Virus record (IMG/VR): IMGVR_UViG_3300046318_000522
Location: 1-22,460 of that record
Strand: one strand, 5' to 3'
Length of the DNA: 22,460 nt
Source of the DNA: a virus
Part shown: one piece after another, positions 1,270 through 21,635 of the stretch
Numbering within the stretch: the stretch's first letter is position 1
Layout: every line of letters begins with the position of its first letter
Program-made: the position numbers and the translations under genes
Notes under the pieces: model-generated
Seen by the model: only the letters and a program-made list of their open reading frames with translations
Database searches by the model: none
Told to the model about the DNA's origin: nothing

Positions 1270-1331
1270 ATATGGACCTAGCTTTTTGGATCGAAAAGAT
1301 GACAGCATCGGTGCGTGGAAGGTCCGCTAAA

Positions 1332-1384
1332 GCTGTCTTACTTGTTGCAGCGCACAAATCGCTGTCTTACGGATCGGCAGCGCA
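1332..1384 (+). repeat. Direct repeat GCTGTCTTAC ... CAGCGCA, two copies
   Basis: GCTGTCTTAC at 1332-1341 and 1361-1370, each followed 6-7 nt later by CAGCGCA (1348-1354 and 1378-1384). The unit length is about 29-30 bp. Related TGTCTTAC words follow at 1486-1493 and, inverted, at 1510-1517. Confidence 0.75.
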
Positions 1385-1557
1385 AAAGGCCGAAAAAACC
1401 TTCCCAAAAGTTAAATTCTCAGCTCACATACGCATTAACCCGCCTCGCCACGTAACTTGAACGACACAAGAGCAAAAACGGGCTCTGTCTTACCGATGGA
1501 GGCCCAAAAGTAAGACAACTTTTTTCCTGCAAGCCACTGAAAACACACACTATCTAT

Positions 1558-1688
1558 CTCTATCTTACCATCTTACGTAAGATAGAGAAAACATAAGGCC
1601 TCGCGCGCGACCCCCCTGCAGCCCTATAGGCTTTTGCGGGAAAGTTGCGCGTCCTATTCTCTATCTTACGTAAGACGGTAAGATAGAA
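1558..1688. repeat. Long inverted repeat made of TCTTAC/GTAAGA motifs
   Basis: The left arm (1558-1587) and right arm (1659-1688) are reverse complements at 28 of 30 positions, with two further matching bases on the inner side. Each arm contains three TCTTAC units, two in one orientation and one inverted, and an internal palindrome: ATCTTACGTAAGAT at 1570-1583 and TCTTACGTAAGA at 1664-1675. The 71-bp spacer is GC-rich. This could be a cruciform or a clustered protein-binding site. Confidence 0.85.
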
Positions 1689-1715
1689 CTTTTGCTGCGC
1701 TGCACAACGCACGCC

Positions 1716-1791
1716 AGCCTACTCCGTCTTCCGAGCCTACTGTGCCATTCTTACAACACACTATCCACATACTTTCCATAGCCTACTCCGT
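1716..1791 (+). repeat. AGCCTACT repeats, three copies
   Basis: AGCCTACTCCGT is identical at 1716-1727 and 1780-1791, with a shorter AGCCTACT at 1734-1741. The last copy overlaps the -35 of the promoter at 1791-1819. Confidence 0.7.
1761..1769 (+). other. DnaA-box-like word CTATCCACA
   Basis: Eight of nine match to TTATCCACA, within the repeat cluster. The same word is at 4040-4048, and a perfect TTATCCACA is at 10948-10956. Confidence 0.4.
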
Positions 1792-1819
1792 AGACTTCGC
1801 CATAAAGAAACCATATACT
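1791..1819 (+). promoter_or_regulatory. Candidate sigma70-type promoter for the small-gene operon
   Basis: TAGACT (1791-1796), 17-nt spacer, TATACT (1814-1819). The -35 overlaps an AGCCTACT repeat and the predicted start lies in the tandem 10-mer at 1821-1840. This suggests regulated transcription of the genes from 1999 onward. Confidence 0.55.
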
Positions 1820-1820
1820 G

Positions 1821-1840
1821 GTTCCGCTTAGTTCCGCTTA
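1821..1840 (+). repeat. Tandem GTTCCGCTTA x2
   Basis: Two head-to-tail identical 10-mers directly downstream of the candidate -10 box. The position fits an operator or an initial transcribed repeat. Confidence 0.7.
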
Positions 1841-1890
1841 GTCCACTCTGCGCTATGTCCCCATCTGCTTCCCTGTTCATCCAGCCCACT

Positions 1891-1951
1891 ATGTCCCGTT
1901 CGGACATCCCGGATGCGCGGAAGGCTGCGCCAAATATCCCCTGCGGATATT
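1891..1951. repeat. Two short inverted repeats in the leader
   Basis: ATGTCC-CGTTC-GGACAT (1891-1907) and AATATCC-CCTGC-GGATATT (1933-1951), both with 5-nt centres, lie in the 5' leader before palindrome site 5. They could be RNA hairpins or operators. Confidence 0.55.
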
Positions 1952-1961
1952 GTCCAGCGTA

Positions 1962-4039: not shown

Positions 4040-4048
4040 CTATCCACA
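4040..4048 (+). other. DnaA-box-like word CTATCCACA
   Basis: Eight of nine match to TTATCCACA, 11 bp upstream of the -35 of the promoter candidate at 4060. Confidence 0.35.
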
Positions 4049-8462: not shown

Positions 8463-9905
8463 ATGGCAACCCTTGTTCCAGCCAACCACGCTGACTTCGA
8501 TCCCGAGATGGACGCGCAGCGCTCCGGCATCGTCGAAGTCAAGCTCACCCCTGAGCAGCACCAGAAATACATGGAGGCGCGCACCGCGCTCCTCTGGGCG
8601 GCGCGCTTCTTCGCCGTGATCTTCTACGAGCGCACCTCCGTGATCTTCACCAATGACGTGCCGACGCTCGCCACCGATGACCGCGTCATCCTCGTCAACC
8701 CGGAGTTCTTCTGCAACCTGACTGTCGGCGAGCGCGTGTTTACCCTCTGCCATGAGGTGGCGCACATGATCTACGCCCACTGCCAGCTGGGCTGGGAGGC
8801 CCGCCGTCAGGGGTATATCCGCGTGATCAACGGCGCGACGCAGCTGCACCCGGACGCCCCTGCCGGATGCCTGCCGTTTGTCCCGATGCTCATGAACATT
8901 GCGCAGGACTTCATGATCAACGCCGCGTTGGTCGAGTGCAAGGTCGGCACGTTCCGGCAGGGGTGGCTGTTTAACCCCAAGTTTACCGGCAACATGTCTA
9001 CCGTGGACATCTACCATACGCTGTTCAAGCTCCAGCCTCCGAAGCCGGAGCCGGAGCCGGAGCCGCAGCAGGGCAAGCCGGACAAGGACAGCGCGCCCGA
9101 GGCACAGGAGGGCAAGCCGGGGTCTAAGCCGGGCGATGATCCCGGCGACAGCGGCGGGGTCGAGCTGCCCATCGGCACCACGGGCAAGGGGCGCTTCGAT
9201 CAGCACCTCAAGCCGGGCGAGGCGCAGGGCAAGGATGCGCGCGAAGCCGCGTCCGAGCGTGAAGCTGAAGCTGGCGAATGGAAGCTCGCCGTCACCAAGG
9301 CTGCGCAAGCCGCCAAGATGGCGGGGCAGATGCCTGCAGGGTTGGAGCGCCTGATCAACGAGATCATCCAGCCGCAGGTCGATTGGCGCGAGCTGATCAT
9401 CGGCTGCTTCGCCCGCTCGCTGGGCGGCGGCGGCTACGACTGGCGGCGTCCTGATCGCGACTGGATCAACCGCGCCAAGCGCGTCTATGTTCCAGCTCGC
9501 TCCGGCAAGGGCGCGGGCGTCGTGGTCGTGGTTGGCGACACGTCCGGGTCGATGACCGATGAGGAGATGAAGATGGTGCTGGGCTGCGTGGTCGGTGTTC
9601 TGGAAGAGGCCAAGCCGCAGAAGATCATTCTCATGTGGTGCGACGCCAAGCTCTACATCGACGGCGAGTATGACGACGCTGCCGATCTGCTCACCCGCGC
9701 CAAGCCCAAGGGCGGCGGCGGCACCTGCTTCCGCCCGCCGTTCGAATGGCTTGAACAGAATGACATCGTGCCGGATACGCTGCTCTACGTGACCGACATG
9801 TACGGCACTTTTCCAGACCGCGAGCCTGCCTACCCCGTGATCTGGGGGTCGATCAGCAAGGTGCTCGATGCCCCGTTCGGCACGGTCGTTCCCATCCCGC
9901 GCTAA
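8463..9905 (+). CDS. Metallopeptidase-like/VWA domain protein (DUF2201 type), 480 aa
   Basis: Two-domain partner of the MoxR ATPase. The N-terminal domain carries a zincin motif HEVAH (97-101) in LCHEVAHMIYAH, expected to bind zinc. Residues about 188-270 are a Pro/Glu/Gly/Lys-rich low-complexity linker with a PEPEPEP run. The C-terminal VWA-like domain has a MIDAS motif DTSGSM (Asp359-Ser361-Ser363) plus later TD (VTDMYG), expected to bind Mg2+ and the partner. This arrangement matches the putative metallopeptidase/VWA family DUF2201. ATG 8463 is fixed by AGAGG within the adjoining palindrome. Whether the HExxH site is an active protease is not known. A degenerate palindrome lies at 8971-8986. 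Confidence 0.9.
   Translation: MATLVPANHADFDPEMDAQRSGIVEVKLTPEQHQKYMEARTALLWAARFFAVIFYERTSVIFTNDVPTLATDDRVILVNPEFFCNLTVGERVFTLCHEVAHMIYAHCQLGWEARRQGYIRVINGATQLHPDAPAGCLPFVPMLMNIAQDFMINAALVECKVGTFRQGWLFNPKFTGNMSTVDIYHTLFKLQPPKPEPEPEPQQGKPDKDSAPEAQEGKPGSKPGDDPGDSGGVELPIGTTGKGRFDQHLKPGEAQGKDAREAASEREAEAGEWKLAVTKAAQAAKMAGQMPAGLERLINEIIQPQVDWRELIIGCFARSLGGGGYDWRRPDRDWINRAKRVYVPARSGKGAGVVVVVGDTSGSMTDEEMKMVLGCVVGVLEEAKPQKIILMWCDAKLYIDGEYDDAADLLTRAKPKGGGGTCFRPPFEWLEQNDIVPDTLLYVTDMYGTFPDREPAYPVIWGSISKVLDAPFGTVVPIPR
8971..8986. repeat. Degenerate TTAAC-N6-GTTAA site 14 (two mismatches, intragenic)
   Basis: TTAAC-CCCAAG-TTTAC, encoding F-N-P-K-F-T in the standard frame. It could be a decayed copy or a chance match. 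Confidence 0.4.
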
Positions 9906-10947: not shown

Positions 10948-10956
10948 TTATCCACA
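10948..10956 (+). other. Perfect DnaA box TTATCCACA
   Basis: Exact match to the bacterial DnaA box, just downstream of the rightward promoter and 24 bp before the polymerase start. Host DnaA could regulate the operon or help replication here. Confidence 0.55.
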
Positions 10957-12857: not shown

Positions 12858-13237
12858 CCGACCGCAATACCGCTCTGTTCAATCGCTGGTGCACTGGCGT
12901 GTCCTGCACGGCGCTGGCGCGCGAGCAAGGCCTGACCCAGCAGCGCGTCAGCCAGATCATCCACGCGCAGCTCAAGAAGCTGCCGACGGGGCGCGCCGAG
13001 GAGCTGCGCGCCCGGCATCCGCACCAGCGGTACGGCTACCGCGGCTCCCGCCGCCTGATCGACCAGAACGAGGTCATCCGGCTGTGGAGGCTCGGTTTCA
13101 GCGCCCGAGAAATCTCCGAGATGCTCGGGGAAGTCAAAGGCTCCAAATTTAACCCGAACAGCATCTGCGCTGTCGTCGCCCTCGCCCGCAACGCAGGTGA
13201 GGACATCCCGAGGAGAAACCGCAATGGCCAGAAGTAA
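12854..13237 (+). CDS. Double helix-turn-helix protein, GcrA-like second HTH, 127 aa
   Basis: GTG 12854 overlaps the polymerase stop. Residues about 18-40 (CTALAREQGLTQQRVSQII) form a sigma-region-4-like HTH. Residues about 73-112 contain LWRLGFSAREISEMLG and then a loop and NSICAVVALAR, which resembles the GcrA pattern LW-x2-G-x-S-x3-I-x3-LG followed by a recognition helix. GcrA is an alphaproteobacterial transcription factor acting at methylated GANTC; only the HTH layout is similar here. It probably binds DNA. It is the only clear DNA-binding regulator in the window, so it is a candidate binder of the dispersed palindromes or of the host's sites. Its stop overlaps the following gene. Confidence 0.75.
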   Translation: MTDRNTALFNRWCTGVSCTALAREQGLTQQRVSQIIHAQLKKLPTGRAEELRARHPHQRYGYRGSRRLIDQNEVIRLWRLGFSAREISEMLGEVKGSKFNPNSICAVVALARNAGEDIPRRNRNGQK

Positions 13238-18794: not shown

Positions 18795-21635
18795 ATGGAC
18801 GCCGCTACGTTCCTTCGCCGCATTTTGCCCGACACGCAGGACGGGTTCTTCTCTGTGCATTTCATGGACCATACAAAGCCCAAAGGTCAGGGCTTCTGGG
18901 GCCGGGCGTTCAAAGACAAGAACGAGATCGAGAAGTGGGCCAAGTGGGCCTCGCAGCGCAACATGTGCGCCTACTACGCAATGGCTTCATACAAGACCGC
19001 CAGCGTCCGCCAGCAGGCCAACGGCCCAGCGTCCTATACGCCCACGCGCACCGCGGTGAACGCCGCCGCCATGAAGGCGCTGTGGATGGACATCGACATC
19101 GGCAAGCCGGGCGCATACGAGACGATTAACCTCGCCGTTAATGCGGTGGCTGAATTTGTGAAAGACACCGGGGTGCCGAAGCCGACCATCATGGTGGGCT
19201 CCGGGTCTGGCCTGCACGTCTACTGGACGCTGACCAAGACCATCACCCCGACCGACTGGGCGCTCCTTGCGAACGCCCTGAAGAACGCAGCATCGACCTA
19301 CGGGCTCCTGCAAGACCCCACGAGGACAGCTGATCCGGCAAGTGTTTTGCGTGTGCCGGACACCCTCAACTGGAAGTCAAAGGAACACCCGAAACAGGTC
19401 AAGGTGCTGGGTGCGCGCCCGGAGGACTACACCCCCGAGCAGATGCGAGACGCTCTGTCGCCCTACATGGTGGCAACACGCCCGGCTGGTCCGGCGCTGC
19501 TGCCGGGCTTCGGAGACTTGACGGCTGGCCTTGGCGGAGCCGCCAAGCCAGTCGATCTGACCCTCGTCCTGCCCGAGTGTGAAGTCCTCCGTGTCGCTGC
19601 AGAAACAGGCGGTGAAGCCTATGAAGAGCCGCTGTGGTATCAGACGCTGCGCGCGGCAAGCTACACGGATAAAGGGCGCGAATGGGCGCATACGATGTCC
19701 AAGGGGCATCCCAAATACGACCCCGGCGAGACCGACAAGAAGTACGACCAAGCCGTGGTGGCGAAAGAGCAGAACGACCTTGGCTGGCCGCGCTGCTCGC
19801 AGTTTGCTCAGCACCGCTCGACCGTCTGCGCCAAATGCCCACACTTCAGCGAGGGCAAGAGCCCGCTCAATTTCCGCAAGGGCGAGACCAACGACCTGCC
19901 GCCGCCCTACCTGCGCCACCCGCCGACCGGCCTGATCTACGTGCCGCTTGCGGCCAAGGGTGACGATGAGACCGAGCAGCGCACCACCGTGCCGATCCTT
20001 GACTACCCGCTGTATGACGCCCAGCTGGTCATGTCGGAAGGCAAGCAGGCGATCCGCTTCACCGCCCACATCCGCAGGAATACTGCCGTGCATCCGGTGG
20101 CCGTGACCGTACCGCTGGAGCGGCTCGGCGACGCCAAGCAGCTGGTCGCCCTGCTCAACGGGCAGGGACTGATCGTCAGTGCAGCCTACCGCGAACGCAT
20201 TGGGGAATTTCTTATGGCATGGACAAAGAAACTGCAGCGCGCGAGCGATCTGACGACCAACCCGGCGTTCGGCTGGGCGCGCGAGGGCGGCAAGACGCTG
20301 GGCTTTTCCTTTGCGGGCGCGTGCCACTCCGGCAAGGACGAGCTGCCGGTGATGGAGACCGACGCAGCGCTGAAGGACGGCTACACCCCGCATGGCGCAC
20401 TCGCCGCATGGCGCAAGGCGTCAGAATATATCTCGACGCAAGGTCGCCCGCAGCTCGACGTGATGCTGGCTACGGCCTTCGCTGCGCCCTTGGTCGAGTT
20501 CACTGACGAGATGGGCATGGTCATGTCGTTCATCTCGCCCGGCTCCGGCACCGGCAAGACTTCCGGCATGCGCACGGCACAGGCGGTATGGGGCGATCCG
20601 CACTCCGAGATGAACGCGCTCAATGACACGTCGGCGTCCGTCGCCCACAAGCTTGGCGCGCTGCGCAATCTGCCGCTGTTCTGGGACGAGCTGCGCGGTG
20701 ACGAGGACAGCCTCAAGTTCACCCAGCTGGTGTTCAACGTCACGCAGGGCAAGGATAAGTCCCGCATGACAGCAACCATCGAGCGTCGGCAGGTGGGGAC
20801 GTGGAACACGATGATGATCGTGGCGTCGAACCAGTCGATCTTCGAGCGTATGAAGGACGGCGCGCCTGAGGGCCCGGCGGGCCAGTATCGCGTCTTCGAA
20901 ATCGTCGTGCCGCCGATCCCGCAGGGCGTGCGCAGCTTCGCCGACTTCGGCACCGTCGTTGGCAAGGTTCGTAACAATTTTGGACACGCCGGGCTGGTCT
21001 ATGCCAAATACCTCGGCGAGAACCATGAGAAGGTCCGCGACGCCGTCAAGCGCATGGCCGAGCAGATTATCGTCAAGGTTAAGGCGGACAACCCGGAGCG
21101 CTTCTGGGTCTACTCCATGGCGACGATCATCGTCGGCGCGCAGCTCTCGCGCGAGCTCGACTTGACCGACATCAACGTGCCCGCCATGGCGAAATACCTC
21201 TTGGACGAGGCGTTCCCGGCGATGCGCGAGCAGGTCTCAATGGACGCCAGCCCCGTGCAGACCGGGGACACGGCAGGCCTGCTGGTGGATTTTGTGCGGT
21301 CCCTGCAGCCAGATCGCTATATCGAGACTGACACCCTGCCGAGGCCGGGCCACAAGGACAGCGTCGTCATCCTGTCGAACGAGAAGCTGCTGCGGCGTGT
21401 GGACGCCCATCTGGTGACCGACACCGGCCAACTGCGCATCTCACGCAAGGCCTTCCTCGAATACCTCAAGTCGCAGGGGGCCTATCGCCGCGGCGTGTCA
21501 CAGGAGCTGGAGGCGGCGCTAGGTGCGCTCAAGTCCAACACCTACCTTGCGCCCGGCACACCTTTCCGGTCGAACTCCAAGGAGAACGTCTGGCTGCTGG
21601 ACACCAATCACCCACAGCTCGGGGCGCTGAAGTGA
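18795..21635 (+). CDS. Primase-helicase (AEP-like primase + DUF927-type helicase), 946 aa
   Basis: Large replication protein. The N-terminal archaeo-eukaryotic-type primase/polymerase region shows WMDIDIG (Asp99, Asp101), GSGSGLH (His141) and LRVPDTLNWK. A Cys/His cluster follows (Cys334, Cys345, Cys348, His350). The C-terminal DUF927-like ATPase shows Walker A PGSGTGKT (Lys588), Walker B LFWDE (Asp631-Glu632) and sensor-like VASNQS. The last ~140 residues are probably a winged-helix DNA-binding domain (KAFLEYLKSQGAYRRGVSQELEAALG). The ATG 18795 ribosome-binding site is weak (GAGAA), so the start is less certain. It would prime and unwind DNA for the family A polymerase. Palindrome sites 20 and 21 are inside the gene. 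It ends the plus-strand operon. Confidence 0.9.
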   Translation: MDAATFLRRILPDTQDGFFSVHFMDHTKPKGQGFWGRAFKDKNEIEKWAKWASQRNMCAYYAMASYKTASVRQQANGPASYTPTRTAVNAAAMKALWMDIDIGKPGAYETINLAVNAVAEFVKDTGVPKPTIMVGSGSGLHVYWTLTKTITPTDWALLANALKNAASTYGLLQDPTRTADPASVLRVPDTLNWKSKEHPKQVKVLGARPEDYTPEQMRDALSPYMVATRPAGPALLPGFGDLTAGLGGAAKPVDLTLVLPECEVLRVAAETGGEAYEEPLWYQTLRAASYTDKGREWAHTMSKGHPKYDPGETDKKYDQAVVAKEQNDLGWPRCSQFAQHRSTVCAKCPHFSEGKSPLNFRKGETNDLPPPYLRHPPTGLIYVPLAAKGDDETEQRTTVPILDYPLYDAQLVMSEGKQAIRFTAHIRRNTAVHPVAVTVPLERLGDAKQLVALLNGQGLIVSAAYRERIGEFLMAWTKKLQRASDLTTNPAFGWAREGGKTLGFSFAGACHSGKDELPVMETDAALKDGYTPHGALAAWRKASEYISTQGRPQLDVMLATAFAAPLVEFTDEMGMVMSFISPGSGTGKTSGMRTAQAVWGDPHSEMNALNDTSASVAHKLGALRNLPLFWDELRGDEDSLKFTQLVFNVTQGKDKSRMTATIERRQVGTWNTMMIVASNQSIFERMKDGAPEGPAGQYRVFEIVVPPIPQGVRSFADFGTVVGKVRNNFGHAGLVYAKYLGENHEKVRDAVKRMAEQIIVKVKADNPERFWVYSMATIIVGAQLSRELDLTDINVPAMAKYLLDEAFPAMREQVSMDASPVQTGDTAGLLVDFVRSLQPDRYIETDTLPRPGHKDSVVILSNEKLLRRVDAHLVTDTGQLRISRKAFLEYLKSQGAYRRGVSQELEAALGALKSNTYLAPGTPFRSNSKENVWLLDTNHPQLGALK
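19126..19141. repeat. TTAAC-N6-GTTAA palindrome, site 20 (perfect, intragenic)
   Basis: Core CTCGCC, with A/T extending to 18 bp; encodes I-N-L-A-V-N. Confidence 0.9.
21067..21082. repeat. TTAAC-N6-GTTAA site 21 (one mismatch, atypical core)
   Basis: TTATC-GTCAAG-GTTAA, encoding I-I-V-K-V-K in the standard frame. The core departs from the usual YTYGAR, so this is a weaker member. Confidence 0.5.

Follow-up and report, generated by a model that had tools for sequence, protein, structure and literature searches.

The low-GC non-coding block at positions 1270-1960 of the DNA analysed here (the window, a complete IMG/VR record of 22,460 bases) is best read as the iteron-type replication origin of a tailed phage of about 60 kb. 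According to this reading, to which we give a probability of roughly two in three, a DUF927 helicase-primase would be the reader of the iterons and would load as two rings, and a promoter would lie at the right edge of the block. The window is a fragment of such a ~60-kb phage and encodes an ATPase, a DUF2201 metallopeptidase/VWA protein, a family-A DNA polymerase, a PD-(D/E)XK nuclease, an SNF2 helicase and the DUF927 helicase-primase. Gene content and order are as in the ~60-kb Rhizobium phages TM3_14A, TM27A/B and TM29, with identities of 39% for the polymerase and 33% for the helicase-primase. Pseudomonas phage Rollin is more distant, as is KPP25, which is linked via the polymerase only. 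No close relatives of the window or of the block were found in a DNA search (phage collection), and the gene flanking the block (198-1055) gave no protein-search matches. In profile searches of IMG/VR the helicase-primase was recovered at 62 loci and the polymerase at 80. A Bradyrhizobium assembly contains one helicase-primase relative, on a contig of 60,568 bases (NZ_PSRT01000042.1, L255), and the IMG/VR genome G010 also has 60,568 bases; a whole phage genome as its own contig possibly reflects an extrachromosomal or carrier state. The window gene at 8463-9905 carries the PHROG label 'HNH endonuclease' (phrog_1314), whereas Pfam assigns it a DUF2201 metallopeptidase and a VWA-like domain.

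Both composition and repeats set the block apart. It holds the lowest-GC interval of the record (0.483 in the lowest 600 bp versus a mean of 0.62, z -4.2), with an only moderate AT content of 52%. A short forward ORF at 1272-1460 has a GC3 of 0.47 compared to 0.63-0.92 in the genes of the window, and is therefore probably not coding. Thus, low GC and lack of coding, as given in a preliminary description of this DNA, both hold. Since raw counts put GC-rich coding repeats first, a shuffle-corrected repeat score was adopted; here the block was the top interval (rank 1 of 73 in the record), and it also ranked first of 219 intervals for local word enrichment. Short repeated sites are clustered at this single locus of the window. 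Eleven of the 12 TCTTAC/GTAAGA words in the window fall within 419 bp (1336-1754), where ~0.06 would be expected (3.25 in the whole window), in good agreement with the roughly ten noticed before. The longer consensus (T/C)(A/G)TCTTAC is found in 10 of the 11 copies of the block.

The iterons are arranged in several ways. Iterons 1 and 2 (TGTCTTAC, 1334-1341 and 1363-1370, + strand) are part of an imperfect tandem repeat, 1332-1360/1361-1390, with 22 of 30 positions identical and one gap; what had been described as two 29-30-bp direct repeats is in fact this one tandem pair. Iteron 3 (1486-1493, +) and iteron 4 (1510-1517, -) form an inverted pair. Three AGCCTACT words on the + strand (1716, 1734 and 1780; 1716-1787) occur nowhere else in the window, just as described earlier, and a weak eleventh TCTTAC lies between them at 1749. 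The tandem 10-mer, GTTCCGCTTA at 1821 and 1831 (1821-1840, +), was likewise found again, at or just past the presumed transcript start. The DnaA-box-like word CTATCCACA is indeed present at 1761 with one mismatch, but the same word recurs at 4040 and a perfect box lies at 10948. It is therefore not specific and was rejected as a marker of the block.

Dyads had been noted as well, although the main one was understated. It is a near-perfect dyad of 129 bp (1559-1687), and its 31-nt arms are 97% complementary. The left arm (1559-1589, +) contains iterons at 1561 (+), 1569 (+) and 1577 (-), and the right arm (1657-1687, -) contains iterons at 1662 (+), 1670 (-) and 1678 (-). Hence, six of the 11 iterons are inside the dyad, symmetric around a GC-rich core, and five are outside. 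The core (1590-1656) is partly self-complementary and holds CGCGCGCGACCCCCC at 1602-1616 and CCTATAGG at 1623-1630. Folded back, the 129 nt reach a minimum free energy of -73 kcal/mol (z -9.9 versus shuffles). Strong foldbacks were also seen in the blocks of many relatives, in a comparison of hairpin strength in 23 genomes in which the block was sampled more densely and hence favoured.

For the comparison with relatives, ATPase regions and then complete or near-complete sequences of 22 distant relatives were fetched. Block limits were set from GC dips and partly by eye, and for genomes G001, G002 and G014 not every scan placed the genome-wide GC minimum at the block. The block lies at 19.4-20.1 kb of the TM3_14A record and at 26.3-26.9 kb in KPP25. 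A single strong low-GC dip lies upstream of the ATPase in nearly all 22 relatives (z about -2.5 to -6.5), and a block like that of the window, low in GC and non-coding, was found in the relatives close to where the early/replication genes begin. In 17 genomes the dip is 0.3-4 kb from a conserved gene family of ~240 aa; the window gene at 198-1055 has a like place and a similar size, but no detectable homology to this family. The most enriched 7-mer of the block has genome rank 1 in 17 of 23 genomes (with ties in G005 and G010) and rank 4 or better in 20 of 23, and in many relatives the block words are nearly missing from the rest of the genome. These words change from lineage to lineage: TCTTAC in the window, ATTCTAA in G002 and G020, TAATCTA in G014, AGATTAA in G023, TTATTCT in G001 and, in further lineages, AATGTCC (G017), ATGATCC (G018), TATGCAA (Rollin), TGTTACG (KPP25) and ACCCTCG (G009). 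TGTTACGA is another lineage-specific block word among the relatives. Similar to the window, several of them have a tandem array whose reverse complement comes some distance after it. A search of IMG/VR with the TCTTAC-dyad pattern gave 41 matches, none of them in relatives of the tested proteins of the window, and found no phage with the iteron words of the window. The preliminary description had proposed to look for conserved iterons in relatives: the words are not kept, which is one of the two conditions it had named as refuting, whereas the element is, as judged from its place in the genome, its low GC, its local repeats and, in many cases, its dyads.

Some sequence is nevertheless shared between blocks. 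The window and G002 have an identical CGCGCGCGACCCCCC in their blocks, longer than any shuffle match, and CTATAGG lies inside the blocks of the window, G002, G006 and G001. These four genomes suggest that the iterons may drift around a core that is kept in part. Among four KPP25-group phages, 97-99% of the block is invariant over ~500 bp, compared to 43-89% in the flanks. Conservation of the KPP25 iterons does not significantly exceed that of the other bases of the block (107 of 654 shifts were as large), because nearly the whole block is invariant; judged by this invariance, the entire KPP25-group block is under constraint. TM3_14A and TM29 have almost the same sequence in the initial part of the block but diverge over its last 300 bp. 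A AACCCATTGATTTTA / AAATCAATGGCTTAG-like word, not seen in the window, occurs in TM3_14A (L003:7800-8130) and in the low-GC blocks of G004, G007, G010, G011, G014, G018 and G024.

The TCTTAC family had been taken to imply a second DNA-binding protein, and a plausible candidate is the C-terminal domain of the DUF927 helicase-primase (18795-21635, + strand). This protein is our candidate initiator and a relative of SaPIbov1 Rep (PDB 8tch), to which its residues 434-746 match with E 4e-11. It also matches SCCmec Cch (5dgk, E 1e-5); these were the only two PDB matches. The candidate iteron-binding domain consists of the last 148 residues (799-946; 21189-21632, +) and was modelled from 41 homologues with a pLDDT of 87, two rows from phage records being left out of the alignment. 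Foldseek alone returned nothing significant for this domain, and its profile had no matches to PDB sequences. In a fold comparison with 999 chains re-aligned, the C-terminal domain of 8tch ranked first (Z 7.9) and 5dgk fourth (Z 7.3). The best match, to residues 453-558 of 8tch, covers 97 residues with an rmsd of 3.0, at a Z under the caution level of 8, below which the tool warns of a possible common arrangement only. TcpK of pCW3, which binds oriT, ties on Z with the Rep/Cch C-terminal domains, and the P4 alpha origin-binding domain was not among the listed fold matches. On its own a Z below 8 proves nothing; what counts is that an independent comparison returned the two matches of the helicase domain, in the same domain order. 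The fold of the C-terminal domain is thus predicted to resemble the C-terminal domains of SaPIbov1 Rep and SCCmec Cch, and by analogy this domain may read the TCTTAC iterons. In SaPI Rep the iteron origin is recognised by the C-terminal domain, apparently bound as two hexamers, and the DUF927 protein Cch is related to SaPIbov1 Rep (PMC7581432).

A possible recognition helix of the C-terminal domain has an (S/P)RH motif that is kept in most relatives, while their iterons differ. Specificity would therefore reside in the wing or in other parts, or the iterons have a different reader. KPP25 has a strong iteron block but encodes a DUF5906 protein (L004:13439-15844, ORF056) and has no DUF927 match, which may mean that one type of initiator was exchanged for another while the origin stayed. 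The DUF927 homologue of TM3_14A (L003:30610-33693) is labelled 'putative integrase protein' and looks misannotated.

We propose that replication starts at the block. The DUF927 helicase-primase would bind the iterons through its C-terminal domain, as its homology to SaPIbov1 Rep and SCCmec Cch suggests, and would load at the dyad as two opposed rings; the opposed iteron arrays may be just what two such rings need. Opening of the AT-rich DNA would then lead to bidirectional replication, and the right-edge promoter would drive early transcription into the replication genes. Cumulative GC skew, suggested earlier as a check, does not decide the matter: there is no clean turn at the block in the window and the picture is mixed in complete relatives; for roughly half of the relatives the skew turns no more than a few kb from the block. 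We discarded it as an origin marker, as it is also confounded by gene direction, which changes at a similar distance from the block at least in TM3_14A.

The block had initially been called an origin or a master switch. Comparative and protein evidence best support the origin, and the switch is left with weak indications. As a purely transcriptional control region, the TCTTAC words would be operators gating an early promoter, with no role in replication start. A sigma-70-like promoter (TAGACT-17-TATACT, 1791-1819, +; a consensus match only) indeed faces the early genes, a terminator-like hairpin (1063-1086, +) closes the upstream gene, and dyads suit dimeric regulators. The block is moreover flanked by members of a dispersed palindrome family, TTAAC-N6-GTTAA, at its left edge (1254-1269, +) and at its right edge upstream of gene 1999 (1962-1977, +). 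However, 11 sites in 400 bp plus a 129-bp dyad far exceed the needs of a switch, and relatives, too, show low GC across hundreds of bases. AT content inflates the promoter scores, which are alike on both strands, so that promoter enrichment was dropped as a feature of the block. Furthermore, the palindromes, a second operator family, already cover the genes: 21 sites with at most one mismatch are spread over 113-21690 against an expectation of 0.07, and most of them lie shortly before a gene start. We therefore regard exclusive transcriptional control as unlikely, while a transcriptional switch beside the origin function is possible. Relatives show the same palindrome layout in other letters (GTTACC-N6-GGTAAC, GTTAG-N8-CTAAC), and no enriched palindrome was found in the scanned part of KPP25. 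In TM3_14A (L003) the Shine-Dalgarno sequence can coincide in part with the right arm, AGGTAAC, and the palindrome may therefore act on RNA or DNA. A small protein encoded at 12863-13234 of the window has a weak helix-turn-helix match (HTH_23/sigma-70 region 4-like, below cut-off) and is a candidate regulator of the TTAAC palindromes.

The stability of the 129-nt foldback, and the strong foldbacks in many blocks, would also suit a structured RNA, transcribed from an upstream promoter and acting as terminator, attenuator or small RNA. Yet five of the 11 iterons are outside the hairpin, no Rfam match was found above threshold, and G002, which shares core sequence with the window, carries inverted arrays without an unusually stable fold. 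The sole arm mismatch, A to G, sits at a position that varies among other iterons too, and sites read by protein therefore fit better than base-paired RNA. A structured RNA is accordingly very improbable, and we rate a partition centromere or DNA-packaging (pac) site marginally lower still. Iteron clusters mark centromeres too, and G010, equal in length (60,568 bases) to a whole Bradyrhizobium contig, could be an extrachromosomal prophage. Against this, no ParA/ParB-type gene was recognised among the window proteins searched, the terminase gene is ~7 kb away in TM3_14A, and the block is kept in KPP25-group phages, one of which is reported to be lytic (CRPAP1904, PMC13340246).

If the block is an origin, its counterparts could form a same-place origin throughout a clade of tailed phages, in which the iteron word changes by lineage, core parts (CTATAGG, GCGCGACCCC) are kept, and initiator and iterons co-evolve as a compatibility code. 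We put this forward tentatively and with considerable doubt; if true, the code would keep co-infecting relatives from firing one another's origins. The literature searched, which mostly did not extend to subscription journals, contained no origin description for these phages. Our reading offers a testable origin and initiator for widespread, little-studied ~60-kb phages, namely Rhizobium TM3_14A/TM27A, Pseudomonas Rollin, possibly KPP25, and many metagenomic relatives. It also offers a natural series of one-locus origins with differing iterons, in which to follow how initiator and sites change together.

Several known systems resemble this arrangement. The alpha protein of P4 combines primase, helicase and origin recognition on one polypeptide and acts with ori1 and crr, which consist of short direct and inverted iterons beside AT-rich DNA. 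The likeness lies in the helicase-primase fusion with its candidate origin-recognition domain and in direct and inverted short iterons near AT-rich DNA. The helicase here is, however, of the DUF927 type and not P4-type, no sequence match to alpha was found, and a second iteron cluster like crr was not seen in this genome fragment, with one TCTTAC outside the block. Fusion of the initiating helicase and primase in P4 has been described alongside the RepA_N origin of PLE, a non-coding region that contains different sorts of repeat, including a semi-palindromic one, and is bound by the satellite initiator (PMC7145576). The block resembles the PLE origin in being non-coding and in combining different sorts of repeat, but RepA_N is an unrelated initiator family and none was recognised in the window.

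The comparison extends furthest for SaPIbov1 Rep/ori and SCCmec Cch (PMC7581432, 8tch, 5dgk), which also have a DUF927 helicase and a C-terminal fold predicted here to be similar. The SaPIbov1 origin is likewise made of short iterons; two-hexamer binding is a SaPI feature. The phage helicase differs by an additional long N-terminal stretch, which matches primase only weakly. In SaPIs the origin immediately follows rep, whereas the block is ~17 kb upstream of the DUF927 gene, at the early-gene start, and no TCTTAC word occurs downstream of 21635 in the window; we therefore liken it to a SaPI-type module in its working only. The owner here is a ~60-kb phage. Iteron origins as a kind are already known, and what is new is the tailed-phage setting together with iterons that change from one lineage to the next while their place is fixed; this would extend the DUF927 Rep-origin logic of SaPI and SCCmec from satellites to tailed phages.
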